A stretch of DNA of 64,000 nucleotides, from the NCBI RefSeq assembly GCF_001625215.2, contig NC_030385.2, positions 18,221,135 through 18,285,134 of the forward strand, given 5' to 3'. The notes beneath the pieces are model-generated. The model was not told where the DNA came from, did no database searches, and worked only from the letters and a program-made list of their open reading frames with translations. Within the stretch, counting starts at the first letter, position 1. Each line of letters starts with the position of its first letter. This DNA is from Daucus carota subsp. sativus. Taxonomy: Eukaryota; Streptophyta; Magnoliopsida; Apiales; Apiaceae. Shown here piece by piece: positions 21,384 through 38,849 of the stretch. The translations under genes and the position numbers were made by a program.

Positions 21384-21445
21384 GGGTGACAATCTAGGGA
21401 GTGCACCTTATATGGAGTTATATAGTACACTCGATCTGAACCGTT
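21384..21445 (+). repeat. Left terminal inverted repeat of the large MULE
   Basis: Begins GGGTGACAATCTAGGGAGTG after a TA run and continues through TATGGAGTTATATAGTACAC to GAACCGTTGAT. It pairs with the right end near 38391. Confidence 0.65.
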
Positions 21446-23400
21446 GATATTAAAAAAAAATTTAACGGCTGTGATTAAGCATATTAAATACATGTTAAAA
21501 CAGTTGGATCTAAATTTAATTTTGGCAACTATACACACACAGGAGCTATACACACACTGGAGCTATACACACGGAAACTTCACACAGAGACATCGAGAGC
21601 TTCACACACACAGCAACTACACACAGCTTCAGAGATTCGAACGACGAAGCTCAGAAACAAGCTCGAAACAACGAATCGAGCTTCCTTATCTATCAAATCG
21701 AAGGTTCAGAAGCCAATCGAAGCAATTCGAAGCTAATCGAAGCTTATCGATTCAATTTTGTTTTGATAAATTAGGGTTTCAAATTAATCGAAGCTAATCG
21801 AAGTTGTTTTGGTTTGTTTCAGGTGATTTAGAGCAGTATTGACAGCTTAGAAGATGCTCCGCCGAATAGGTCAGTGAAATTCCGGCGATTTCTTCATAAT
21901 TTTATATTCTACAATAGAATGTTGTGAATTAGAATAATATACAATATACAATAAAATGTTTATTATTGTTCTACAGTAGGTGATTTACCAATGTTCGAAA
22001 CACATATGTTCCACAATAGAAGTAATTTTGATTATTCTGTATTAGAATAATATCATTTTCATAAAACAGAGCATGTTTATTAAGTTTATAGATTATTTTT
22101 CATTATTTTGCATCTGTAGTAGAACATATTACAATTTCATGATGTTTGTGCTACATTAGAATAAAATCATTGTTTATAGTACATAGCGTTTAATCTTCCA
22201 CAGTAGAATATATTACAAGTTTGTCAAATTTGTTGTATATTAGAATAAATTCATTGTTTATAGTATAGATTATATTGCTTCTTTGATAGAATATGTTACT
22301 AGTTTATGAAGTTTGTCAAATATGTTGTATATTAGAATAAATTCGTTGTTTATAGTATAGATTATTTTGCTTCTTTGGTAGAATACTAGTTTATGACAAG
22401 GCTTATATATTACTTGTATTCATCAGAATAACTAGTCATAGAATATTTTTTAGGAAATAGTCACCTTGAGTTATTATTTGGTGTTTGCTTAAGGTAACAT
22501 CAGTTGATCCCAGTGATCATGGATTCACTTTGGAGATTGGTATACTCAAATATGTGGTATTTTATGATTCATGGAAGCATCCATATTCTTTTTGTACTTA
22601 CTCTTTTTGTACATATTCGAGCCATGCCAAAATCTGATATTTTAGGATTCATGGAAGTATCCAGTAGTACGTTGCTAGCTTATAAATCTCTGTGAATTAT
22701 TCTGAGTATTGAGTCGTGGTAAAGATATATCATTCCTCGAGCAATTCTGATTGCAATATCAAAGCGTGTACGCCAATTTAGCACTAAACATAAATACCTT
22801 TTGTTGTCCTTTAGTTCCACCCAAGCTTCATTTGTGGAAGATAGGTAATGGTCGGATGATCAAAATAACCTTGCCATAAAAAATTCTTCTCACTAAACAT
22901 ATTCTTAAATAGAACTAAGTTTCCAGTATTCAGTAGCTGGGCTGAGTTTTTACATCCGGATTATGAAATGTTAGTTGACTAAATTGAAATATGAGGAGTT
23001 TCACTGTAAAATAAAACAAGCTGTCCTGTTTTATCCATTTAGTATCACTTAAGCTTGTGTGACATTTAGTCATTGTTTCCTGTTATAATGGTATGGAACA
23101 TTGTTTACAGGCACATATTTAGAGTACAACTTTAAAGCTATTTGCTCTTTCCATATTTTAACTCAAAGTGTATCTCTTAAGGAATAACTCAAAGTGGATC
23201 ATATAAAATTACTCTGGCTCTGCCTCTGGGTCATATGACAACACAATCATTCTAATACTTTATTTATTTATTTGCATAAATTAATTAAAGTGTTTTAGGT
23301 GTCTCGGTGGTGTAAGCTTTCATTTATTTGCATAAATGAAATACTTGGTTTTGATTTTCCTATTTAATCATTCTAATATCTTCACTACTTTTATCTAAAC

Positions 23401-25399
23401 ATGGCAGGTACAAGGTCGGGAGGAAAGAAATATAAATTCAAAACTTCAGGATCTGCAAAACAAAGCAAGTCGCAAAAGAGGCTTAAGCAAAATTCTGATG
23501 ATGAAGTACAAGAACAGTTGAGCACATTAGTCTTTGATGATTATTGGAGGTAATATATTTTTGCCAAATTATACAACTGTTTTCATAACATTTTTTCTAT
23601 ATTATTTTCTCTGGTCATGCAAATAATTTTTTTTCTATGTAGTTTAATCTGGAAAAGAATACCTTCAGAGAGAATAGAAGGATGTGTGTATTACCATCCT
23701 TTATCTTTTCGAAGCTATTTGACTGAAAAATCAGTTAAAAAACTGAAAAAATGGGTATCAAGACAAAAAGTGTTCTCAAGCAGATATGTCTTCATTCCAA
23801 TGTGCCAATCGTAAGTAAATTAATAACATGATGTTAGATATGTACTAAACATTCTTCAAACCAATTCTAATAAATTTATATTTGTTCATGACAGAAATCA
23901 CTGGAACATGCTCATTATCTGTAACATTGGCGAGGATATGAATTCAGAAACAAATAGTCCATGCATGTTCTTATTGGACTCGCTGCAAATTGGTGAAGCT
24001 ACAAGACTTGAACCAAGATTAAGAGAGTAAGATCTTATATTAACTACTAATTATAGTTTAATTATTTCTTATATATAAATATTATATTGTAACATAAAAT
24101 TTGATATGATGCAAACTTCAGGTTTGTGTTTCATTTATATGAATCTGGAAATCGAAAAGAATCTGCTGAGGACATCTTCAATATACCATACAACATACCA
24201 TCAATTCCACAACAAGAAGATGGGACTAAATGTGGTTATTACATGTTGTTTTACATGTTCAAATTCCTCACTGCTTGTCCCTATCAATTTGACATTTCTA
24301 AGGATTACCCAGGATTTGTAAGTTCTTATTTATTGGCTTTCTGTAATCTATATGTTCCTAATCTGTGTTATGATTTATAAAATAAAATGATGTGTTAAAA
24401 ACTTGTCTGTTGTAACAGATGACTGAAGATTGGTTTGATAAGGATGAATTTCAAAAATTTTATGAAGACTTGACATCAGAGAAAGATAAGGAGTGTAGTT
24501 TATCTGACACAACTACAGATAAAAAGAAAGATGGTGAAGGAAGTAGCATTCAAAAAATTGAGAATGTGAATAATGATATGATGCAAACAACGCCATCACA
24601 TGATCTATTCAGATCTAATGATGCCCTCCCTCCACTGGTATCATACACCCCAGAAAGTTCACAAGAAGAGCAGAAAATAACTCAATGTAAGGAATTCTCC
24701 ACTTTGTTAAGTTTATATTCTTTAGAACTTTGTTTATTGCAAATTGCTTTAAAGAAACATAATGTTGTTCTTTAAATATGTCTCCCTGTAGGCAATAAGC
24801 CATCCCCTTTGCCAGCAATTGAAGAATCAAAGATCGAGGGTGATGTTGTCAAAAAGAAAAAGAGCATCAAATTTAAAATCAAATCAGGGGAACAAAGAAA
24901 ATCACCTAGGCTCATTGAAGCAAAGAAAAATCCTAATGACTACACCAAGGATGAGACAAAAGTTGCTGCAGAAGAAGATGAAAGAAATTCTACAGAAGAA
25001 GAAGCTGAACCAGTCGTCATTTCTGTAGTTGATCATAATGAGGATGAAGAAAATCTGGATAGCAATAATGAAGACAAGGCTGATGAAGATGATTTTATTG
25101 AAGATGGTAAAAGCAAAAAAACAACTAAGCCTAAGAAAAAGAAGAGAAAAGCTTCAAGTCCGGTAAATAACTTTATTATTCAACATTCTATTTCTTCTTT
25201 CACTTCATATATTAGGAACACTCTTTCATATATGTGCACACATTTGGAACCTGTATATCTTTTGATATGTGTAATTCAAATACTAAATCTTTTCCTTCAA
25301 TCTGGATGATATTAGGTCAAAATGAAAAGAGCCAAGAACGAAAAAATGTCAAAGAAGAAGAAGAAGAAACAGAAGAAGAGGAACCAACTGAGAACATAA
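23401..25399 (+). CDS. Ulp1/SENP-type C48 cysteine protease, catalytic set intact
   Basis: Ulp1-family proteases mature SUMO and remove it from proteins; this one is MULE-borne, so its substrate is unknown. Exons: 23401-23549, 23643-23810, 23895-24026, 24122-24317, 24419-24686, 24792-25162, then 25316-25399 if the first acceptor is used (455 aa). The C48 domain spans about residues 45-235: His108 (SNHWNML), Asp134 (FLLDSL), Gln181 and Cys187 (QQEDGTKCGYY, five residues between Gln and Cys as in Ulp1). Downstream WF...EF resembles the end of ULP2-like domains. Residues 300-428 are an acidic/basic low-complexity tail with Lys clusters that may be nuclear signals. All phases agree. The end is uncertain: an acceptor 14 nt further on would fuse it to the next gene. 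Confidence 0.85.
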
Positions 25400-25416
25400 G
25401 AAAGCCTGAAACAGAC

Positions 25417-28400
25417 ATGCCAAATAAGATATTGTTACGTGCCTACCCGAAAACCTTCACCGATGCTATCCAGGCATTGACAGAAGATCAGAAAAAATGG
25501 GTGACTGAAGCGGGATTTGGCCCTCTCTTATCATTTGCAATGAGAAAAGTTCCGCACTCAATGTGTGTGAATATAATTTGGTGGTATGATTTGACCGAGG
25601 ATGAGATGATCTTCAGTAAACAAAGGGTGAAGATCACAGAGCAAGATGTGGCTGATACCCTTGGGCTGCCAAAGGGAGAGAAAGAAATCTGTTTCAAAAA
25701 AGGCAAAGTAAATAGAGACAAATTCTCTAGATGGAGGGCACAATTTCCTGACAAAGATGGAAATAGAATCACAGAGTTGACCGTGTATGAGGCGATAACA
25801 AGATCAAGAGTGGTGGATCTTCATTTCAAACAAAACTTCATGATTCTAATGATGAATCTGTTTGTATACACAAACAACAGCTCTTTCGTTTGTCAAGATG
25901 TTTTGGGATTTGAAGACGAGTTTGAAAACGCAAGCCACTACAATTGGTGCAAGCTTGTGGTTGAATCTCTTCGATCTACTCATGAGGAATGGTGGGATGA
26001 TCCTCAGAAAAAGTACTACACTGGTTCACTAGTGTTCCTCCTTGTAAGTAAACATATAATATTAATAATTCATACTTGTCCTTAATTTCTATTGTGCATT
26101 GATTTTAACTAACAATGTTTGCAGTTCTTCTACCTTGACCGAAGCGTCCATACTGAATATAGAGCAGAAAGGACAAGGCCTGTATTCATTGGTTGGAGGG
26201 ATTCACTGATTGAAAATAGAAACAGAAGTGAATCCATTGATGGAACATTTATGAGAGGAGAAATTGTAGGTTCATTTGTCCAATTAATATAATTCTCAAC
26301 CGATTTCTTTGAAAGATTATGATTAAATTTTGTTTTTAAAATACATTTCAGGTTGGACCATTGCACATTTCAAACACTGGAGAGAGACAGAGTACTAGAA
26401 ATGTATCAGCTGAAGAACATAGGCAGCAGGTAAGAATGACAAACACATCATAAACTACATTCTCAATATAAACATATGTGATAAGTAAACTACAATTCTC
26501 ATATGTTATTGAACTTTAAAAATATAGGATGTAAATCATGAAAATGAGGAGGCTGCAATTTTGAAATTGCGTAAAAACAAAGGAAAGTTACCAGCTGAAG
26601 AATTTGTGGATGTAAACTTCTCAATTCTATTCTCTAAAGATTATTTTAATTTATTTGGATTTATTTTAATTATGTTCTATAGTACAATAGTAATTTTGTG
26701 CTTCCAAAGTATGCTCGATTTAATTGATTATTAAACTGCATCAATCTTATGCTTTTATTAACAACATAAATATGTCTTCTCTTACAGATATTTCAAGAAG
26801 GTGAGAATTTTAAAACACCAAAAGAAACCTTAAGTGGAGTAGAAATGATTCCACAAGTTTTCAAGGAAGATGAAACTTATTCTGGAATCATGTCTGTGGC
26901 GAGAGATATTAAGTACACGTATGAAGATAATGAAATTATCACTGAAGAGGTACAAATCTTTTTTTTATAATTCTATAAAATCTAGTTTATCTTGTGTAAT
27001 TATATAAAGTTTTGAATAATGTTATTATGTCTTTGAAACTAGGAAATGATAACACAAGTTGATAAAGACATCAAAGAATTGGAATTTGTGTATGAAAAAT
27101 GCAAAAACAACTTGAAGCTGGCAAATGACCTCTTCCCAAACAACCATAACCTGAAGCTGTATGAAGACAAATTTGCGAAAATGTATCAACCACAAAGTCA
27201 GGAAGAAGAAGAACAACAAAGGTATTATAACAACACTTAGAATATAATGTAATTTTTGTGATTGTTTACTTTGATAATTGTATGATTCAATATTCTTATT
27301 TATCATATGTCATTCTCTTCTATTCTAGTAATCATTAAAAAATAATTCAAGTGAAAATAATATATTTTGAAAAACAGAATTGAACCAGAGAGTGACAGAG
27401 ACCCAGAATGGCCTTACTACACGAACAAGGACTGGAAAACCATCGATATTTTAGCGCTTCCAAAATACGATAGAGCATATAACAAAATGATTGATATCGA
27501 TGATTTTCTTGGTGATCTAACATTGGGTGGTGAACGTATTGATTTTGATAGATTTGAAAGAGAAGGTGACACTGAATATAATCCAGGAAGACTGAGGAGA
27601 GAGGTAAAGGTCGGAGACTCCAAAAAATCACCATTTCTTGATCGCACAATTGACTTCAACAAGCAAAAGATTACAAAGGCAGAGGAGGAGGTGTGGAATT
27701 GGATCACAGCAGATACATCAGATGCAACGTATGTTTTCACTAACATATTTGATTAAATTAAAAAATACGTCATTACTAAATCTATGCAGTGCTTTTAAGT
27801 ATGAATAATATAATGTTACTGCAGCCAAATTATTTTCTTCTGGGAGGATGTAATTTGCATGAGCTACCAGATTAAAACTTTTCAATTCAATGAAAAAATA
27901 TCAACTGCTGTCATTGATGTATATGCGACCATCCTGAATGAAGATGAAAAATACAGATCCCCAGACTCCCCACACCGGTTCTTTTGCAACACTAATATCA
28001 CGGTATGCTACCAGACGAAATATTTTAGACACAATGAAGGTCTTTAATAATATGTAATATGCACTGATTTATATTAACTTCTATAGTTTATATTAATTTG
28101 AGTTTGTTTGTACAATACAGGGGATGTCATTGACAAAAAGGAACCATGTTGAAACTCCTGAAGAGGCTAAAGCAAAGTATAGAAGGTTTTGTTCAAGATT
28201 AAATATATGGCTTCTAAAACATGATACAAAAATTGATGATATCGATCTGGTACATTCTAAATCATTTAATAAATAATTTCTGTTTCACACAAAAACACAA
28301 ACATAGATAGACTAAAATATATATTTCACATTTATTTATGCAGATATTTTTCCCAATCCATGATGTAGACCACTATTATGTTGTCTGTTTCAACATTAAA

Positions 28401-29059
28401 AATCCATCAATAGAGATCATTGACAACAATAGAATTGCAGATGGCAGCAATGCTGTCTATGATGGATTACCGCAATGCTTGGTATTTTTCTACTTTTATT
28501 TGTAACTATTAGTTGTGTTATATGTATTGACCACAAATTTTTTTTCAGCAACAACATTTTGTGAGCTACTTGGAAACAAGCAGTCCGGCCAAGAGTAAAC
28601 AATTGGGCAGCGTTTCAATTGTTCGACTAGATATGAAATGGCGAACAATGTATAACAAGGTGGATTCTGGAGTGTTTGCCATTAACCATATGGAAACCTA
28701 CAAAGGCAATGGATTGCGGAGCTGGGAATGCAAATTTGCATATGAAAAGGTAAGACCATTCCATGTCTGATTTGAGTTATATAATAATTAAATTATAGTA
28801 TCAGCAAAATGCTATTTAGATACTTTACTCTAATACAATTGGTATTCATTGTTCTACTATCTATTCAGTTCTAGAATACTTTATGCTCCAGACAAACTAA
28901 CTAGTTAAAATGATCAATATATTGATGCAGGGAGTTCAACAGAAAAAACAGCTGGAGAAGGCACGTCAGATTTATGCCTCAAAGATTATATATTCACCAA
29001 TAAATCTGTACAAAAACAAAATGGTGAATGAGATCAAGTCGCTGTGTCAACCAAGATGA
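25417..29059 (+). CDS. MULE-borne C48-like protein with Cys-to-Ser change
   Basis: Twelve exons join in frame: 25417-26043, 26125-26265, 26352-26429, 26528-26611, 26788-26949, 27043-27221, 27378-27728, 27825-28002, 28121-28249, 28344-28481, 28549-28749, 28931-29059 (798 aa from this ATG). The N-terminal domain (LLRAYPK...EAGFGPLLSFAMRKVP...WWYDL) is the type found in front of Ulp1 domains in plant transposon proteins. The C-terminal C48-like domain has His653 (DVDHYYVV) and Asp670 (IEIIDNN), 17 residues apart as in Ulp1. The nucleophile position is Ser729 (KVDSGVFAINHMETY, codon TCT at 28666-28668), and the usual oxyanion Gln is Met723. It is probably not a normal protease and may bind rather than cut. 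The true N-terminus may lie upstream, fused to the previous protease. I see no frameshift or stop. Confidence 0.8.
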
Positions 29060-29408
29060 ATAGTACTTGTCTTTGAAAGTACTTGTCTTAGAAAATGCTT
29101 GTCTTTGAAAATGATGTGAATAGTGAGGTGAAGCAAGTACTTATTTTTGAAAGTGATGTGAATACTCATTGTTTGGTGTTATAATGGTATGGAACAGTGT
29201 TTAGAGGCACATTTAGAGTACAAATTTAAAACTATTTGCTCTTTGAAAGCGATTGTGAATAGTGAAACTGCTAGTAAAAATGTTGCAGACTTTTACTCTC
29301 TTGTAATGTCTGTTTTGCTCTATCTATCATTCTATATATAAAATAATCATTGTTATGTATTAACTTGTGTTGATCTTCATATGGATTGTAAGTTATTAAA
29401 AATGGATA

Positions 29409-29890
29409 GTAAGCTAATAATAGTAAGTTAAATAATAGTATTCTTTAGTGGAATCATTATATTTTACCAAAACCAAAAAACCTACAATGTTCACATCAAT
29501 ATTCAATAGTAGAATAATTTAATTTATTAAAAAGAATTTTGGTTTTCATTGTAATACATCTAAATTTTAGTAAGCTAATAATAGTAAGTTAAATAATAGT
29601 ATTCTTTAGTGGAATCATTATATTTTACCAAAACCAAAAAACCTACAATGTTCACATCAATATTCAATAGTAGAGTAATTTAATTTATTAAAAAGAATTT
29701 TGTTTTTCACTGTAATACATCTAAATTTTAGTAAGCTAATAATAGTAAGTTAATAATAGTATTCTTTAGTGGAATCATTATATTTTGCCAAAACCAAAAA
29801 ACTTACAATGTTCACATCAATATTCAATAGTAGAATAATTTAATTTATTAGAAATAATTTTTGTTTTCACTGTAATACACTTAGATTTTT
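29409..29890 (+). repeat. About 161-bp tandem repeat, three copies
   Basis: Units start at GTAAGCTAATAATAGTAAGT near 29409, 29570 and 29731 and are almost identical. Each contains AATAGTAGAATAA, a variant of the element-wide motif. The repeat lies between the protease and transposase genes. Confidence 0.9.
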
Positions 29891-29899
29891 ATAATGTTC

Positions 29900-30518
29900 T
29901 ACACTAGAATCATAGTTTTTCATGTACAATATATTTGTTTTTTAGTGTTCTATAAAAAAAAACTCATTACATTCCTCATCATATGACTTAGGTTTATCAT
30001 AGGAATAATATATGACTTACAAAACTAAATGAAAGCCTAATATATTAGCTGAACTAATCCACCACTTTCTGAACTAATCCGAATAATTTACAAGATCTCT
30101 ACTCCTGCACTGAAATACCATGTGAATCACAAGGCATCCTCCTACTCATCTGGTATATGCAGCCTCTCTATGGCAGCCTGCCAAAATATTACAACCTGGT
30201 CTTTAGCTTGTGCATTCAAGTCCATATATATAATCTGTATAGCGTAGCAAGTTTGGTCAAGCAAATTCATATCTATGCCAATAAAGCCAATTGAAAAATA
30301 ATCCATAGTTACATCTCCACCGTGAGAACACATTGGGATAAAATCCAAATATCAGAGTTTCAGACAATCATTCTTGCTTAGTAAAATTTGTAATTTAATA
30401 TAGTGAACAAAGTAAAATTTGTTCATTTACACTGCAAAATAATCCAGGAACTATAAACTTGACAAATCCATATTTTTGCTTCAATCCTTGTTTCTTCTTG
30501 TCCGCTGATCCATGCAAA
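29900..30518 (-). other. Spacer with one coding-like ORF (30142-30348)
   Basis: A minus-strand ORF at 30142-30348 reads DFIPMCSHGGDVTMDYFSIG and ends IERLHIPDE. Its composition is protein-like (GIDMNLLDQTCYAIQIIYMD). It could be an alternative 3' exon of the transposase gene or a remnant. No family recognised. Confidence 0.3.
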
Positions 30519-33500
30519 CTAGCTTATTATTCCTAAAAAGAGATATATGGAAATAAGTTATAAATTGAAATCAATCTATAAGTTTCAATTACCATTAGAT
30601 AAAAATATTTAACAAGCATAATTGCAGAGAACTTTAAATTGCAAAATACCTGTATTGATGGTTTGGTTAGTGCTAATATTGTCGACACAAATATTAGCAG
30701 CTTGCATGATTGGATTTTGCATCTTCTTCTTCGGGCAAGTACGTGAATCATGATATCCTTCCAGCATACAGAATTTGCACACCCTTAATTTCCTCTTCTT
30801 TCCATCACAACTTTTTTCTGCAGGACCAACAAGTCTTTTTCGGCTACCTTTATTATTACTTTGGAGTGGTGGATGAACAGTAGTTATAGTTGAAGGCCTC
30901 ACTCCGAAACATTCTTCTAGCATATCTTCTTTTGTAGCTCTGGAACTTTCAAATTTTTCTTCAACCCTTATTTTCAAACTATTCATCTCATCAAACAAAA
31001 ACTGCATACCATTACCATTGTTTGAAACATATTCAATGCATCCTTGGAACACAGTCCATACTTTTTTTGACATATCCCTAATGTTCTGTACATTAGTACT
31101 TTCCATCACATCTGAAAATTTTGATTTACAAAATCTGTCCTCTGCATTTCTCATCCAGCGACTACACAAATACTGATGTGGAATTCGTTCAACACCCCAT
31201 AGACCCAAACAGTAGAAACAATGCCGACAAAGGTATCCCACTCTAGTAAAAAGCTTGCAAGAACAATCCACATTGTTTGTCAAGAACGAAAACTGAACCT
31301 CGAAATACTTCTCATCATAAGTTTTATCACGTACAATATACTTACTAACACCATCAGCCACAATTGGCTGTCCAGCCAAACTAATATGAAAACAACTAGC
31401 TTTAATCTGTTTTTGAACCTTGTAAAACATTGTGCGAGTGTAAAGCTGGGCTGCTTCCTTTTCAATTTCTTTTTCAGTGATAGTTTTAGGAATACATCTA
31501 TCTCCATCATTAAGTTTTTTATTTTCATAAATCTGTTTCTCAATGGCACTCTCATAGCATATATAGAACTCTGACAGTGTGTCACCCCTCTGCACAAAAT
31601 GATTAAAGAAAAAGTTACTACTTTCTGACCTTGATGTCGTTCTCAGCAACGCTCCCATGGGCTTGTCCCGAAAAAAGGCAGGAATCCACGATTCTCTCAT
31701 AAGGTACATTTCATTCAACCATACATGTTCACTCAATCCAAACTCATCCAACACAGAATTCCAACCTTGTTCAAATTCAGATATCGTCAAATGTGATGAC
31801 CAAACAAATTTATTAAGTTTCTTCATAAAACCAGATTCCGCACAAAAAACAGGACCAACCTATAATAAAAATAATATTTTTAATGGATTTAGACAAATGA
31901 GAAGGTACTTCTAACACACAACAGATAATCGAATTAAGTAGATAATGTACAACTAATCTATTCCTCTAATAGAATAAATGATAAAATATAATAACTCAAA
32001 TCATACTAATGAATATCTATATTACCAACAAACATATAACAGAAACAAGTAAATCAAAATCATTTAATTTGCATAAGGAAGATGTATTTGATTACCTTAG
32101 CTGTAAACTTTTGCATTATATGCCACATGCAACATCGATGAATTGAATTAGGGAAAATCTTGTTGATAGCAACTTTCATAGCCGGACATTGATCAGTGAT
32201 AATACATTTTGGTGCCTGCTGAAAGACTTTCAAAAACATCTCGCACACCCATGTAAAATTTGTCGAATCCTCGTGATTAAGCAAAGCAGATGCAAAGGTA
32301 ACACTTTTCCAATGATTGTCAACACCTATAAATGGTACAAAAACCATGCCATACCTACAATAACACAATATAAATTATACAAAAGCAGAGGTGAAAAAAT
32401 AAAACAAAGTTTATAAACTTATACAAATATAAAACTAACATACTTATTTGTGCGATAAGTTGCATCAAAAGAGACCACATCACCAAACACTTCATAGCTT
32501 TGGCGTCCTGGAATATCAGCCCAAAATAGACGAGTAAGATGACCATCCGAATCTGTTTCATACTCATAAGAAAATCCAGCATCTGATGTCTCTCGCTTAT
32601 TTTGGAATTTTTGAAGCAACATATCCGCATCATGCTTTCCAATATACAACTTAATATCCCTTACCCAATTCTGAAAATCTGTAGCAGTTGCTCCTATATC
32701 AGTGTAGGAACCGGCTATAGATTTATAGAGGCTATGCGCTCTATGAGCACCAATATTTGATTTAGCAGCATCTAAAATGAATCGGCGTTGAAGTGAGGAA
32801 ATAGTTCGATTGATACGAAGAAATTGCTTTCCAGATGTGGATGCTAAAGGATGATTGTGACCTTCAACAAAACAAGATATTATATATTGATTAAAACCAC
32901 CATATTTCAGTTGAACCTTTGCTTCACATTGACATTTTTTTGTAACTGTCCTTCTTCGCTTTCTTACATCAACTCCTGCAGTGCTTGAGACAAGAGACAA
33001 ATCCGAATTACTATCAGATTCTTTCGACATAGAAGTTTCATGATTACCTCCCTTCGAACAGACAAAATACTTGTAAACTACAATACCATCTCTGACTTTT
33101 TGTGATGACTTGCGAATATCGAAACCACCTTGCCTCCCATATTCAGCATAAAACTTAAAACATGTTTCAATATCTCTAAAAATCTGACCAGAATAAGGCT
33201 TCACTTTGTTGTCATTAACCTTCGGTATCCATAATCCACTACTACTACTAAACGAATCATCAAAACCTTCGATGAAATTCTCAACTTCATCATCACGAGC
33301 ACACTCAACAGTGAAATCATTGTCATTAGCAGTAGAATCAACTTGTAAATCACTGTATGTATTGCAACTGTTATGTATATTTCCTGGTCAAAAGAAAACT
33401 ATAATTCAATAAAAAGTAGAATAAAATTGCATTCAAAACAAATTAAACACTTAATTTCCACTATATATGATTCTCTAGTAGAATAAAAAAAATATTATAT

Positions 33501-33803
33501 GTTCAATAATATAACTATAAGGACTCAAACATACTTTAGCTATACAACTCAAACATGTAATCTAAAATTAAGTCAATCAACACTTAAAAGATAGCTCACA
33601 GTATTCAGAATCCACAACACAAACAAAAATAAATATAAACTTTCAAAAACAACTACCAGTGCAAGTAGAATCACAGATTTTAAGAAGTACAAATCTCCTA
33701 ATTATATTAGCTAAACACAATGAAATTGAAGATAAATACCGGATGATAATTGGATCTGAAATTTTGATTTAATGATATTACCTTGATTCGAAGAAGACGC
33801 CAT
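30519..33803 (-). CDS. FAR1-type MULE transposase, intact, 814 aa
   Basis: Five exons on the minus strand join in frame: 33782-33803, 32444-33383, 32096-32354, 30650-31859, 30519-30532. Domains in order: FAR1 DNA-binding zinc finger of the WRKY-GCM1 type (about residues 80-200, ending FVEGHNHPL); MULE transposase core with the expected acidic triad Asp314 (SFDATYRTNKY), Asp375 (ITDQCPAMK) and Glu486 (SRSESSN); SWIM finger Cys606/Cys608/Cys618/His620; and a CCHC-like knuckle (CKFCMLEGYHDSRTC) near the C-terminus. The start MASSSNQ is a 22-nt exon, and the short last exon gives GIIS-stop. The region before the ATG is GA-rich. No stops or frameshifts, so the element could be, or recently was, autonomous. 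Confidence 0.9.
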
Positions 33804-34189
33804 TGTTACTTTACTGTGTTTGACAGAGAGAGGGAGGAGAGAGTGCAGAGGGGAGAGTGCAGAGCGGGGAGGGGTGAGGCACGGAGGCGAGGGAGGGGTT
33901 TTGCTGCAGTGACACTGACGGAGGGAGTGGGTATGGTTTGGGGAGGGAGAGTGTAGTTGGTTATGAATCAACTGTATCAATTAAGTTTAAGCATTTATTA
34001 TTATTTTTATTATTATTTTTTTATTAATGACTATGATTAATAAAAATATTCTATAATATTTATGATATTCCATAATAGAATAATCTTCAATTTTCTTTTC
34101 TCTCCTATCTTCCTCTCTTTTTTTCTCTTCATTCTCTCTTCCTCCACTTGTCTCTACAATGTCTTTGCTCATGGTGGAGGAGGAGGAAC

Positions 34190-34813
34190 ACAATGACAGC
34201 AACACGAAGCCCGAGAAGGCGATCTTGTCGCGATGAGCACGCCTTCCAATATCTTGAATGGGAAGCGGACTAAGAGACAAAGGCCACAATCACCCTTACC
34301 ATTCTCAGTTGCACATGCAAATTCTTCAAGCAACTATGCAGGAGGTGATTATGTGACTAGCACCACCACGAGTGACGAGGACTCGGCTGGGCCTGGCACC
34401 ACGGAGGAGGAGGAAGACATGGCAAAATGCTTGTTGCTATTGGCGCAAGTTGGTCCCAAAAATGATTCAAATTTCGGGCTAGTTCCTTATAAATTCACTA
34501 GCAAAAAGTACTTGGAAACAAGCATAAGTACTAATGGCAAAACAGGCATTTATGTCTACCAATGCAAAACATGCAACCAAACATTCCCTTCTTTCCAGGC
34601 TCTAGGTGGTGACCGGGCTAGTCACCGCAAGCCTAAGAACGTTAACGCGGCCTTGGAGAACAAGTCGAGGCTTATAATCTCAGATGAAGACGAAGATCAG
34701 CCACCACCATTCAAGAGAAGTTCTCATCTGGACAGGCCTTAGGCGGTCACATGAGGCGCCATTGTGGAGGCGCCCCTGTCAACCGCAGCAATGCCACAAA
34801 TACAACTACTCTA
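34190..34813 (+). pseudogene. Captured ZAT-like C2H2 zinc-finger gene fragment
   Basis: The frame from 34233 reads KRTKRQRPQSPLPFSVA, an acidic EEEEDMAKCLLLLAQ block, and a QALGG-type finger (YQCKTCNQTFPSFQALGGDR), all typical of plant ZAT repressors. The first zinc-binding His of that finger is Asp. The second finger has lost its Cys pair, and a one-base slip near 34715 moves SSGQALGGHMRRH into another frame. No intron. It looks like a captured, decayed host gene within the MULE. Confidence 0.8.
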
Positions 34814-35095
34814 TAAGAGAATAATAATTAGATGATTAATTATATTCAAGAGTAGAAGTATTTAAGTATCAGTATTCTTAACAACTATATTGCTTTTGTG
34901 CTTAAGTAGAAGAATTTTTGCTGTTCTACAAAAGAATCTTTTGCACTATAAAAGTACATAAAAAATCAAAATTTACATTTGTTTCGAACACAAATTACAC
35001 AATTTCTTCAATATGTGACACAAACACAAATATTTACATACTATTTCAAGCATATTTACATTAGCAAAAAGTATTGCTTCTATACATAATTTGAT

Positions 35096-38018
35096 TCAAG
35101 ATACTACATCGAAATCTAGTGTCTTTTTCTCAACTTTTTCGGCAAATTTTACAGCTTCCAACCACCAACCATCTTTCAAGCAGCTATCCACACTGCCTAT
35201 CGTCTTGTTATCAACATCATTCTCATAAATTTTGTGACGCTTAACACCCTCAAAAAATACAGTTGTATCAGGTACAATTTCTTCAGGAACTGGACGTAGT
35301 GGAGAGCGATAACCTGTTATAACATTAACAAGATTATTTAAAATTGATTATATTTTTCAAACATTTATTTCTATAACTACTAGTGACACATAATTTAATA
35401 ATACAGTGACTCATACCTCTGCAATCTGGATCATGACATTTTTGATAATAACTAGCTCTTCTTAGATCAACAACATATATAACTACAACGTACAAGTCAA
35501 CTTCAAATCAAAATAAAATCACAAAACTCAAAGCTACAATATAAAATCAAAATAGATACTACTAAGTGAGATAAAATGTACCATGATTGCTTTTGTGTTG
35601 TCTACCAATTCTCTCACAGTATCTATTTTTTGACATATTATACACCATTATACCATATTCTGAAAACCAATGCCAACTGTGAATTTTTCCTGAAAAGAAC
35701 ATGTAATATCCAACCTACTAATCATATAAACGATTATATATTGAAATATCAATAAATATATATTCTTCTTATGTTTCTAATATTCAATTATACATAAATC
35801 AAAATCACTTAATGGATACCTGATATATTTCCTAAGGAGGCAACAGATTCTACAAACATATCCAATAGTGGAAATAGTGATCTCCCTGTCTGAAATATTC
35901 TTGACGAATCAATTATGCAAGAATTTGACAGAAGATTTCTTGGGACTCCATAATCTTTATGGAAGTTAACATGAACCTGAATCAAATTACATCTTATTTT
36001 AATTCAAAATAAAATTAACAAATATGCAAATTACAACAATTATAAGGGGTATGGATACATTCTATCAAACAAAAGACTTTTAGAGGTGATAATAGTTACC
36101 TGTGTAGCAAATTGGAGAGTGTTTGAACAACCAATATCCATTTCACATATAAGAATATTTTGAACATCAACATCCACTTTGCAGATCAAAGATGCCATAA
36201 ACATATCTTCCTCACTCTATTTTAGGAATATTTCATTTCATTTAGTTGAGTAACAAATATAAGCATAGGAGAAATAACAACTCAGAGTCTTAGTCTAGTA
36301 TTTTACCATTAACCTGCACTTAAAACGTCCAGTAGGTACAAGTATAGAAGTCTTTCGTGCTTTTGAAGACAATGGTAAGCGAAAGCATCGATTTCTGGAA
36401 TACACTGCTCTATCAATAAAAACTTCTTTATTCACATGAGATGAGTTCCTATCTTTTAATATGAACAATTTTTCAAATCTTCCATCTCTTCCCCTTTCAT
36501 TTTGTATCCTTGAGCAAATCTGAAATTTAAAAAAATATGAAAGCTTCATCAGTTTTGTGATTAAACAATACAAATCCCAAGAACCTAAACCTTGATGAAT
36601 ACAATGTAATTTAAATCTGAATTACACCTCACCAACAAATGCACCAGCATGTCGGTTGTTCTTAAAAGCAGTGTTAGGGAAACAAATGATTATATGGAGA
36701 GAAAATTTTTCTGCCAATAATAGTATAATTACAGAATCAGAATCCAAATTATAATTTGTTAAAAAAAGACTGTTTATGTCAAAATAATACCTTCTGTTGA
36801 CGAATCAAGTTCAACAACACACTCTTTATCTCCTTCAATAGAATACTTCTCATTCATGAAATCAAAAACAAGTGATAACAGTATATCAACCATTTCCTCA
36901 CCATTGTTGTTTGAGTTTTCGATCTTATTGAATTCCAAATCAAAATAAAGGTGGCATGGTAATCCCTAATCACAAAAGGAAAGTTTAAAACAGATTAGAT
37001 AAATAAAAACACACTAATTACACCGTGTATTACACTAATACTACATAATGTAATGGAACATAATTACCTCCTGAATAACTTCATAATGATGACGATATTT
37101 GGGATTCATGTTCTTGTACCTATGATTACATGACAAATTTATAAGTTATAGCAACCATAAACATCAAAATTACATAGATATATTAAAGCAAATAAACAAA
37201 GATTATAAGAACCTTCGCCAAAACTCCTTATAGCTTGAAACAACAAACCTCCTCTGACCATTAACATGGTCTTGATAGCTAAAAATAAAAACATTGCTAT
37301 GTTCTTTTTGATAACTAATAGCTTGCTCTTGTCTAGGAAATGTTACCCATACTTCATTCCTGACAAATATCATATGCAACAATAATAGTTCATTGATAAT
37401 TGTAAAAACAAAACTAACTAAAAGCACATAATAACATTAATCCAATGTACCTTACTGCATTTTGTTCACTAATATCATCACGAATCTCGTGTAATAATCG
37501 CAGCACTCTATCTGGCAATGATTAGGACCATGAAATGGACTATATTCATTAGAAGTTTAACACATTCAACTATACATAACAATTTTATTCCACACTAGAA
37601 TGAATATTAAAAACATTGCAGATAACAACACCAACACCTAATCTGATTCTATAGTAGAAGCGTTAATTAAACAGTAAACTATAAAATCAACAAATCAATT
37701 CTACATTAGAATCCAAATCCAAATTAATTATAAGATACAAGAACATACAAATCTCATATGTAATACTATTCTACGATAGAACATAAACAACTTATCAAGA
37801 TTATAATCAATCCAGTATACAAGTTCAACAATACAATCCGAAATCACATTCAAAATAACTAAACAACATATATGACTGTAAAATTGTAACTTTACACAAT
37901 CTCCAACAATATGCAGCTTGAAAAAATGAAAATCAATTAGAATAAACAATAAACCTGATGAACTTGGAACATCACCGACTGATTTCATGCTTTCAGATCC
38001 ATTGTAAGAATAATCCAT
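35096..38018 (-). CDS. PRIMPOL: PrimPol primase-polymerase (CCDC111-like), intact, 483 aa
   Basis: PrimPol reprimes stalled DNA synthesis in eukaryotes. Twelve exons join in frame: 37955-38018, 37451-37511, 37213-37359, 37068-37119, 36791-36965, 36628-36710, 36314-36519, 36100-36214, 35820-35976, 35582-35689, 35417-35482, 35096-35313. The archaeo-eukaryotic primase motifs are present: I, Asp117-x-Glu119 (HLYFDLEF); II, Ser170-x-His172 (KFSLHII); III, Asp230 (FIDRAVYSRNRCFR). The UL52-type zinc ligands Cys378, His385, Cys405 and Cys410 keep the x6 and x4 spacing of human PrimPol. An acidic/aromatic C-terminal stretch (DGWWLEAVKFAEKVE) could be an RPA-binding motif. The start is about 280 bp inside the right MULE end, after a GA-rich leader. 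Intron 1 holds four copies of the MULE motif. Full-length and unbroken, so either MULE cargo under constraint or a recent capture. Confidence 0.92.
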
Positions 38019-38019
38019 A

Positions 38020-38260
38020 GTTCGTTTGCAAGAAACAGAGCAGAGAAAGAAATTCCGAGAGAGAAAGAAATTGCGAGAGAGAAAGAAATAGCGTTGAGAG
38101 AGAAAGAGAGAGAGAAGAGAGACAAGTGCGAGAGAGAGATTTGAGAGAGAGGAAGAACAGAGAGAGAAGTGCGAGAGAGAGCTTTGAGAGAGAGGGAGAG
38201 CAGAGAGAGAGCGTTGAGCGAGAGACACAGACAGTAGAGAGAGAAAGTAGTTGGGTCAAA
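38020..38260 (-). promoter_or_regulatory. GA-rich leader upstream of PrimPol
   Basis: A purine-rich stretch of GAGAGAGAAAG-type repeats lies between the PrimPol ATG and the right MULE end. A similar GA-rich block (33810-33960) precedes the transposase ATG. These are probable promoter or 5' UTR sequences. Confidence 0.45.
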
Positions 38261-38299
38261 CGGTTGACTGGATAAAAATTTCAGTTTTTATATAAATAT

Positions 38300-38391
38300 T
38301 AACAGCCGTTGGATAAGATACGAATGAAGGGTGGAGATTGAATTAAAGGTTTACTACGTAACTCTATATAAGATGTCCCTCTCTAGAATTT
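38300..38391 (-). repeat. Right terminal inverted repeat of the large MULE
   Basis: Read on the minus strand it gives TTCTAGAGAGGGACATCTTA then TATAGAGTTACGTAGTAAAC, with CCAACGGCTG about 85 bp in. Agreement with the left end is about 80% over the first 40 bp with one indel, judged by eye. Confidence 0.65.
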
Positions 38392-38392
38392 T

Positions 38393-38395
<3 letters not shown>

Positions 38396-38440
<45 letters not shown>
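38396..38440. repeat. (TA)n tract at the right MULE edge
   Basis: An uninterrupted TA run directly outside the right inverted repeat, matching the TA run outside the left end. Confidence 0.9.
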
Positions 38441-38444
<4 letters not shown>

Positions 38445-38849
38445 GAATTTTAGTGTTAAAATTATATTTAATCAAAATTTTAAATTGCATTTAAAAATTT
38501 AATGAAATTCAATTAAAATTATTTAGAATCTATTAAAATTTGTTATTATCGTTATTGATGAATTTTTCATGAAACGATGGAATTTGTGAAATTGTTAAGT
38601 GTATTTTATATTTTTTAAAATTTCACCACAGTCCATGAGATTTGAAAAATTATGTTTAAACTAGTAATTTTTGCCCACTACGCATGGGCATAAAAATGAT
38701 ATATTTGCAATAAATAAGTTCATAAATTAAAAAAATATTATAAATTTAATACAACAATAATGAGTAATTTAATTTGAAAAGAGGTGTCTATCTTTATATG
38801 CAATATGAAAAGAAACTCCTATAAGTTTAGTAACAAACATATGCAATAC

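Follow-up and report, generated by a model that had tools for sequence, protein, structure and literature searches.

A PrimPol primase-polymerase gene carried by a family of Mutator-like elements in the carrot genome

Introduction

Cut-and-paste transposons are thought to leave the DNA synthesis at their excision and insertion sites to the host. Among plant Mutator-like elements (MULEs), VANDAL and KIU/Kaonashi elements carry extra genes, including one with an Ulp1-type domain, and a short motif that is dense in their non-coding parts (PMC13317346, PMC5735166). Pack-MULEs hold captured host gene DNA between their ends; those of Jiang et al. measure up to 7 kb, and their transposase acts in trans (PMC6431247). 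MuTAnT, a Medicago MULE targeting TA microsatellites, is inserted in (TA)n (PMC4486113), and giant transposons that contain replication genes, such as Polintons and Teratorn, are mobile elements that bring a polymerase or primase with them (PMC6431247).

Here we describe a 17-kb MULE of carrot (Daucus carota) that carries a gene for the primase-polymerase PrimPol between its transposase gene and its right end. It lies in a stretch of 64,000 nucleotides, C5:18221135-18285134 (the window), to which positions below refer unless another locus is named. The PrimPols of this family form a single clade, are fixed in their linkage to the element in the carrot genome, include four open frames, evolve under purifying selection and have moved recently. 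We put at roughly 60% the probability that this autonomous-type MULE recruited PrimPol as a maintained accessory gene, with a probable role in nuclear repriming or gap filling.

Results

The element and its PrimPol gene

The ends of the element and its two principal genes are placed as follows.

21384..38396, no strand assigned: whole MULE, 17,013 bp, with (TA)n at each side; tips and (TA)n flanks are common to other copies in the genome
21384..21553, plus strand: left terminal inverted region; 41 of 55 aligned bases agree with the right tip over the outermost 60 bp, and 107 of 152 over 170 bp
38227..38396, minus strand: right terminal inverted region; right tips are present in 11 of 11 copies
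30650..33803, minus strand: gene for a FAR1-type MULE transposase, exons 33803-33782, 33383-32444, 32354-32096 and 31859-30650, plus a short last exon of provisional position
within 35096..38018, minus strand: PrimPol gene, exons 1-6, at 38018-37955, 37511-37451, 37359-37213, 37119-37068, 36965-36791 and 36710-36628
within 35096..38018, minus strand: PrimPol gene, exons 7-12, at 36519-36307, 36216-36100, 35976-35820, 35689-35582, 35482-35417 and 35313-35096
37512..37954, minus strand: PrimPol intron 1, a leader intron of element type in which the palindrome occurs four times (at 37588, 37647, 37699 and 37769)

The original prediction, made from the window alone, had inverted ends about 17 kb apart; its left tip stands at 21384, and its right tip moves from 38391 to 38396. 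The inverted ends are weak; the alignment of the 60-bp tips nevertheless scores 55, above the best of 1000 shuffles (45). A target site duplication (8-11 bp for a MULE) cannot be delimited, both flanks being (TA)n. The intact FAR1-type transposase of that prediction was recovered: the frame is open across the four modelled exons, and Pfam matches to MULE (E-value 9.1e-28) and FAR1 (3.7e-13) identify a MULE DDE transposase. Likewise upheld, by gene model, alignment and structure match, is a full PrimPol gene with catalytic motifs, four zinc ligands and no stop; its start codon is about 380 bp from the right end, where about 280 bp had been given.

The PrimPol gene has 12 exons and 11 introns, all GT-AG, and encodes 486 amino acids with zero internal stops; the exon model was built in this analysis and departs at both ends from the annotations of other copies. 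The protein matches the solved PrimPol structure 5l2x, presumably human PrimPol, with an E-value of 7.6e-36. Alignment to the PrimPols of the host, celery and other plants shows conservation of the DxE and SxH motifs, of the Asp of motif III and of the four zinc ligands, C-H-C-C, giving the protein the catalytic residues and CHC2 zinc finger of a primase-polymerase of the archaeo-eukaryotic primase superfamily, CCDC111 type. Compared with host PrimPol, the element form is missing about 140 residues at the N terminus and 33 at the C terminus (the last exon), and its 21-aa leader exon and intron 1 derive from the element side. A tail segment with DGWWLEAVKFAE aligns to the plant PrimPol tail, and a search of the tail against solved structures in the PDB returned zero matches. 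From comparison with the human sequence, we take this segment to be a putative motif A, which would bind replication protein A (RPA) and is probably retained in the element PrimPol.

In the plant-specific N-terminal 90 aa of Arabidopsis PrimPol, signals for chloroplast and mitochondrial targeting and for nuclear localisation are predicted, and plant PrimPols have a conserved RPA motif A (PMC8523556). The zinc finger is required for priming, and human PrimPol 1-487, with its tail removed, still primes (PMC4027207). Because the element protein has lost the organelle-targeting N terminus and kept the core, the zinc finger and the putative motif A, we infer that it would be an active primase-polymerase acting in the nucleus.

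PrimPol is linked to the element across the carrot genome

A DNA search with 34700-38450 revealed long copies elsewhere (40 of 175 candidates scored), and ten were fetched with their surroundings. Four of them (subfamily I: C5b, C2a, C9a and C9b) are mostly 95-98% identical to the window copy, with one C2a block at 92%; four more (subfamily II: C3a, C9c, C7a and C9d) are mostly 88-94% identical to it, and C2b and C8a are internal-deletion derivatives. A whole-genome protein search, with 72 of 72 candidates scored, placed PrimPol at 12 loci, namely one host gene and 11 loci in the element; the latter are exactly the window copy and the ten fetched copies, with the same gene order and the same right end. 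The host gene is a single separate locus at C3 2.417-2.422 Mb, to which 564 of the 637 codons of the annotated protein P0003 were mapped. In a DNA search for the transposase, with 40 of 127 candidates scored, all nine loci found at 92% identity or more have PrimPol, and the next long matches, about 71% identical, are absent from the places of the PrimPol census. With PrimPol in nine of the nine close transposase loci found and the host gene elsewhere, the proposal of a MULE with its own PrimPol is strongly supported; carrot showed neither of the contrary outcomes, this PrimPol in place without the flanking element or related MULEs that all lack PrimPol.

The 11 copies occupy 11 insertion places and, among the flanks compared, share only unrelated repeats beyond the tip and TA run. 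Nine of the right tips lead directly into (TA)n of at least five repeats; in C9a there is only TATAT before other sequence, and in C7a a (CA)n precedes the TA run. Left tips were found in five copies (window, C9a, C9c, C2b and C8a), each preceded by (TA)n, the other six left ends being outside the fetched stretches or not located. The family displays features of a MULE, terminal inverted repeats common to dispersed copies in differing flanks, at the right tip in 11 copies and at the left tip in the five where it is visible. In the window, C5b, C2a and C9a the whole modelled transposase frame is open, which sets the element apart from the non-autonomous Pack-MULEs, in which a transposase is absent.

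The PrimPol frame is fully open in the window, C2a, C9a and C9b. In C5b, exon 12 has lost 8 bases; stops or frameshifting gaps are present in C3a, C9c, C7a and C9d, and C2b and C8a are truncated. The C7a gene is in addition interrupted by an insert of about 14 kb (C7:11402397-11419847; L024, L025). C9a and C9b show 36 differences in 16,715 aligned columns (0.22%) and their right flanks differ (the left flank of C9b is outside view); a copy with intact PrimPol therefore moved recently. Assuming about 7e-9 substitutions per site per year, their age is of the order of 0.1-0.2 million years.

In the one copy of the 71% sister family that was read, at C4:18.82 Mb, the element stops at (TA)n about 1.1 kb past the transposase match, and this interval holds no PrimPol. 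PrimPol therefore either was gained by the window family, at a point between its transposase and its right end, or was lost in the sister.

PrimPol was captured once from the host lineage

A protein tree with 28 rows puts the nine element PrimPols on a single branch (support 100/100) that joins the carrot and celery host PrimPols (100/99), placing the element copies as a single clade inside Apiaceae; the two hosts are grouped against the element only at 89/77. The element stem has a length of 0.44, and the carrot host lineage one of about 0.13. The exon blocks match those of the carrot host gene, and PrimPol was therefore captured as genomic DNA, introns included. Retained introns and host-matching exon blocks rule out a retrocopy, and the dS of about 0.65 together with the tree rules out recent capture from the present-day carrot gene. 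The captured part begins inside a host exon and stops before the last host exon.

A relative at 73% identity, L030, has the PrimPol leader and 38 bases of exon 2, and a further relative, L031, has the leader; both are without the PrimPol body. The L030 remnant suggests that the capture predates the split from L030. We conclude that host PrimPol was captured once, between the transposase gene and the right end. L030 itself (C1:39647500-39652500) is a deletion derivative of about 4.3 kb in which the 5' part of the transposase is fused to the PrimPol leader, and one of its open frames resembles, by eye, a PP2C fragment.

PrimPol evolves under purifying selection

Ratios of nonsynonymous to synonymous divergence (dN/dS) were obtained by a counting method. 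Between nine element copies and the host, dS is 0.62-0.66 and dN/dS 0.28-0.31; C2b gives 0.41 with its truncated end misaligned, and C8a was excluded. Pairs within subfamily I gave PrimPol values of 0.19-0.53 from few changes, those in C5b-C2a and C9a-C9b being too few for a ratio. Between subfamilies, PrimPol shows 0.33-0.43 (window to C9c, C9d and C3a; C9a to C9c and C9d), the transposase 0.31-0.45, the second gene described below 0.37-0.50 and the Ulp1 gene 0.59-0.75; when the window is compared with the decayed C7a, PrimPol stands at 0.54 and the transposase at 0.48. PrimPol pairs within subfamily II, all broken, range from 0.37 to 1.08, and these copies therefore look near neutral.

Under a codon model with kappa, omega came out at 0.30 (subfamily I), 0.45 (eight copies) and 0.32 (host included). 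Against omega 1, twice the log-likelihood difference was 6.1, 13.2 and 85.6, respectively (5.9, 19.1 and 104.7 without kappa), corresponding to chi-square P values, with one degree of freedom, of about 0.013, 3e-4 and <1e-15. Kappa in the omega-1 fits was taken from a grid, and the subfamily I optimum is the lowest grid value, so that 6.1 is slightly high at worst. PrimPol and transposase pairwise distances are correlated (Spearman 0.92, over the non-independent pairs of eight copies), and therefore both genes descended together. An omega below 1, and of about 0.3 to the host, supports purifying selection on PrimPol, which by the dN/dS values between subfamilies is about as strong as that on the transposase.

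A palindrome is dense in the non-coding parts

The motif that the original prediction had seen throughout the element and in PrimPol intron 1 is the palindrome TTCTANNNTAGAA. Its five exact sites in the window all fall within the element; with at most one mismatch there are 24 sites in the 17-kb element and 6 in the remaining 47 kb. Forty dinucleotide shuffles of the interval 21384..38391 gave a mean of 1.85 sites and a maximum of 5. Non-coding sequence holds 23 of the 24, with four in PrimPol intron 1, as anticipated, and zero in introns 2-11. Specified bases of the non-coding sites differ between the window and C3a, C9c or C9d at 1.9-3.3%, against 6.4-7.9% of all non-coding bases, a comparison with some bias from the sites having been picked in the window. 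The reduction is little in C7a (7.4 against 8.6%) and little or none within subfamily I (2.1-3.1 against 2.9-3.3%). As raw counts without a shuffle comparison, L030 and L031 have 14 and 13 sites per 5 kb each; the sister locus (C4) has a raw count of 17 in 20 kb, all inside 9.5 kb. The arrangement resembles that of the VANC21 motif (PMC5735166), and TTCTANNNTAGAA is a candidate binding site for an element protein, possibly a VANC-like one.

Other genes of the element

The remaining features of the element are listed here.

23401..25399, plus strand: Ulp1 (C48) peptidase-like gene, Pfam PF02902, E-value 1.6e-9; last junction provisional
25417..26605, plus strand: second open gene segment, without Pfam match, dN/dS 0.37-0.50 between subfamilies
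28121..28749, plus strand: second Ulp1-like C-terminal segment, Pfam PF02902, E-value 1.2e-6; spliced by eye
29407..29889, plus strand: three direct repeats of about 161 bp each, self-similar blocks in the copy comparison
34096..34804, plus strand: captured C2H2 gene fragment, Pfam PF13912, E-value 1.4e-8; matched in subfamily I copies only

The second gene matched zero Pfam families, even at an E-value of 10. The second Ulp1-like segment has Ser at the expected position of the catalytic Cys, and is perhaps a non-catalytic domain. The direct repeats sit between the Ulp1-type gene and the transposase, and other copies have them too. The open frame of the C2H2 fragment, which we take to be ZAT-like, terminates early, and the fragment is probably a passenger; it is unlikely to be an ancient fixed part of the element, having no match in C3a, C9c, C7a and C9d. 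In the C4 sister copy the Ulp1-type and second genes of the window are unmatched in 9.9 kb leftward; this sister MULE (C4:18812600-18832400; L033/L032) has different open frames on its left side, and accessory genes may be swapped between MULE families.

Discussion

Alternative explanations

Several observations weigh against a maintained accessory gene. Only four of the 11 copies have a fully open PrimPol and all four subfamily II copies are broken, with dN/dS of 1.08 (C3a-C9c), 0.75 (C9c-C7a) and 0.63 (C3a-C7a), as expected for dead copies. Protein evolution in the element lineage is about three times as fast as in that of the host, and constraint on its PrimPol is therefore relaxed; the subfamily I omega test is based on few changes, with the omega-1 fit at the low edge of the kappa grid. 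The sister family is multicopy without PrimPol, and the diverged relatives L030 and L031 moved without the PrimPol body. No extra PrimPol was found among the annotated proteins listed for other Apiaceae, celery and hogweed included (the best 120 of 1460 and of 175), related transposases being present, a weak negative in that the hogweed host PrimPol is also unlisted and annotation often omits transposon genes. The element also holds a clear passenger, the C2H2 fragment. Such points would suit a Pack-MULE-style passenger, near full length by luck and without a role for the element, in a family that took the C2H2 fragment (subfamily I), whose diverged relative L030 has a fragment resembling, by eye, PP2C, and in which seven of 11 PrimPol copies are broken or truncated. 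We nevertheless consider this explanation rather unlikely, given a dS of 0.65 to the host at dN/dS 0.29, a within-element omega below 1, a between-subfamily PrimPol dN/dS equal to that of the transposase, and a recognisable PrimPol in all close transposase-bearing copies found (40 of 127 candidates scored).

The protein would be irrelevant if the captured host sequence shielded the element from silencing, small RNAs against it hitting the host gene too. Such a conflict for captured genes is discussed in a 2026 review (PMC13317346); however, shielding gives no reason to expect constraint on the protein, and where the element matches the host gene its DNA is only 73-84% similar, which reduces cross-talk through small RNAs, so that we regard this explanation as improbable. 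Hardly more credible is service to the host, for example in stress tolerance, under host selection: gene annotations exist in public records for some of the copies, but 11 of 11 lie inside element copies, none stands alone, some are very young, and shared flank is limited to tips, TA runs and unrelated repeats. A chance neighbourhood of the host PrimPol locus and a MULE, which a view of the single locus would allow, has practically no probability left, since the census, with eleven dispersed copies in the same order and with the same right end and the host gene elsewhere, rules out both this and a host locus in the window.

A possible role in transposition

The maintained-gene reading leads to a tentative mechanism. 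DNA transposition efficiency is reported to fall above a cargo of 6 kb (PMC6431247). Most likely, the element PrimPol would reprime single-stranded stretches and so help the synthesis that copies the long element back into the excision gap, or synthesis across the (TA)n flanks; the result would be a higher copy number for an element well above the usual MULE size. Mutator gains copies through gap repair. The roles already proposed in the original prediction, in gap filling, copy-number gain and replication stress at excision sites, are conceivable on these grounds, and it is possible, though we hold it with some doubt, that a nuclear-retargeted PrimPol acts in the transposition cycle, repriming long excision gaps and (TA)n flanks so that the 17-kb element restores and multiplies itself, perhaps with a tie to replication stress.

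A MULE that has retained a host primase-polymerase under transposase-like constraint is a system in which to ask whether copy-number gain and element size are limited by repriming. Its copies are natural variants, intact, broken and deleted, with a PrimPol-free outgroup family and the host enzyme as comparators. Through the dispersed palindrome, VANC-like anti-silencing can also be tested beyond Arabidopsis, independently of PrimPol.

Comparison with known systems

The earlier statement that no MULE with PrimPol has been described holds within the literature searched, in which none was found (titles and abstract openings; most subscription papers and bioRxiv lie outside this scope). Neither the accessible parts of a MULE survey (PMC6446971) nor those of the 2026 capture review (PMC13317346) mention a primase or polymerase. 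Like VANDAL and KIU elements, the carrot MULE has an Ulp1-domain gene within it and a dense non-coding motif; unlike them, it has PrimPol, a palindrome unlike YAGTATTAY, a FAR1-type transposase and recognisable inverted ends, whereas they are non-TIR (without terminal inverted repeats). It also differs in its second gene, which has no Pfam match; a protein like the VANC anti-silencing factor of VANDAL/KIU may bind its dense motif. MuTAnT shares the insertion in (TA)n but has 218 copies, is related to short non-autonomous elements, and has a mudrA-like transposase and another tip sequence, and the accessible parts of its description contain no PrimPol (PMC4486113). Like Pack-MULEs the element has captured host gene DNA between its ends, but it still has a transposase of its own, and the enzyme gene that it carries is nearly complete. 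The plant host PrimPols of carrot, celery and Arabidopsis are 55-70% identical to the element protein and have the same catalytic and zinc residues, with exon blocks matching in the carrot gene; in contrast to them, the element PrimPol has lost about 140 N-terminal residues and the last exon, has gained a 21-aa leader exon, and is multicopy and mobile. Polintons, Teratorn and similar giant transposons are virus-like or virus-derived, whereas the carrot case is that of a host repair enzyme recruited by a cut-and-paste element.

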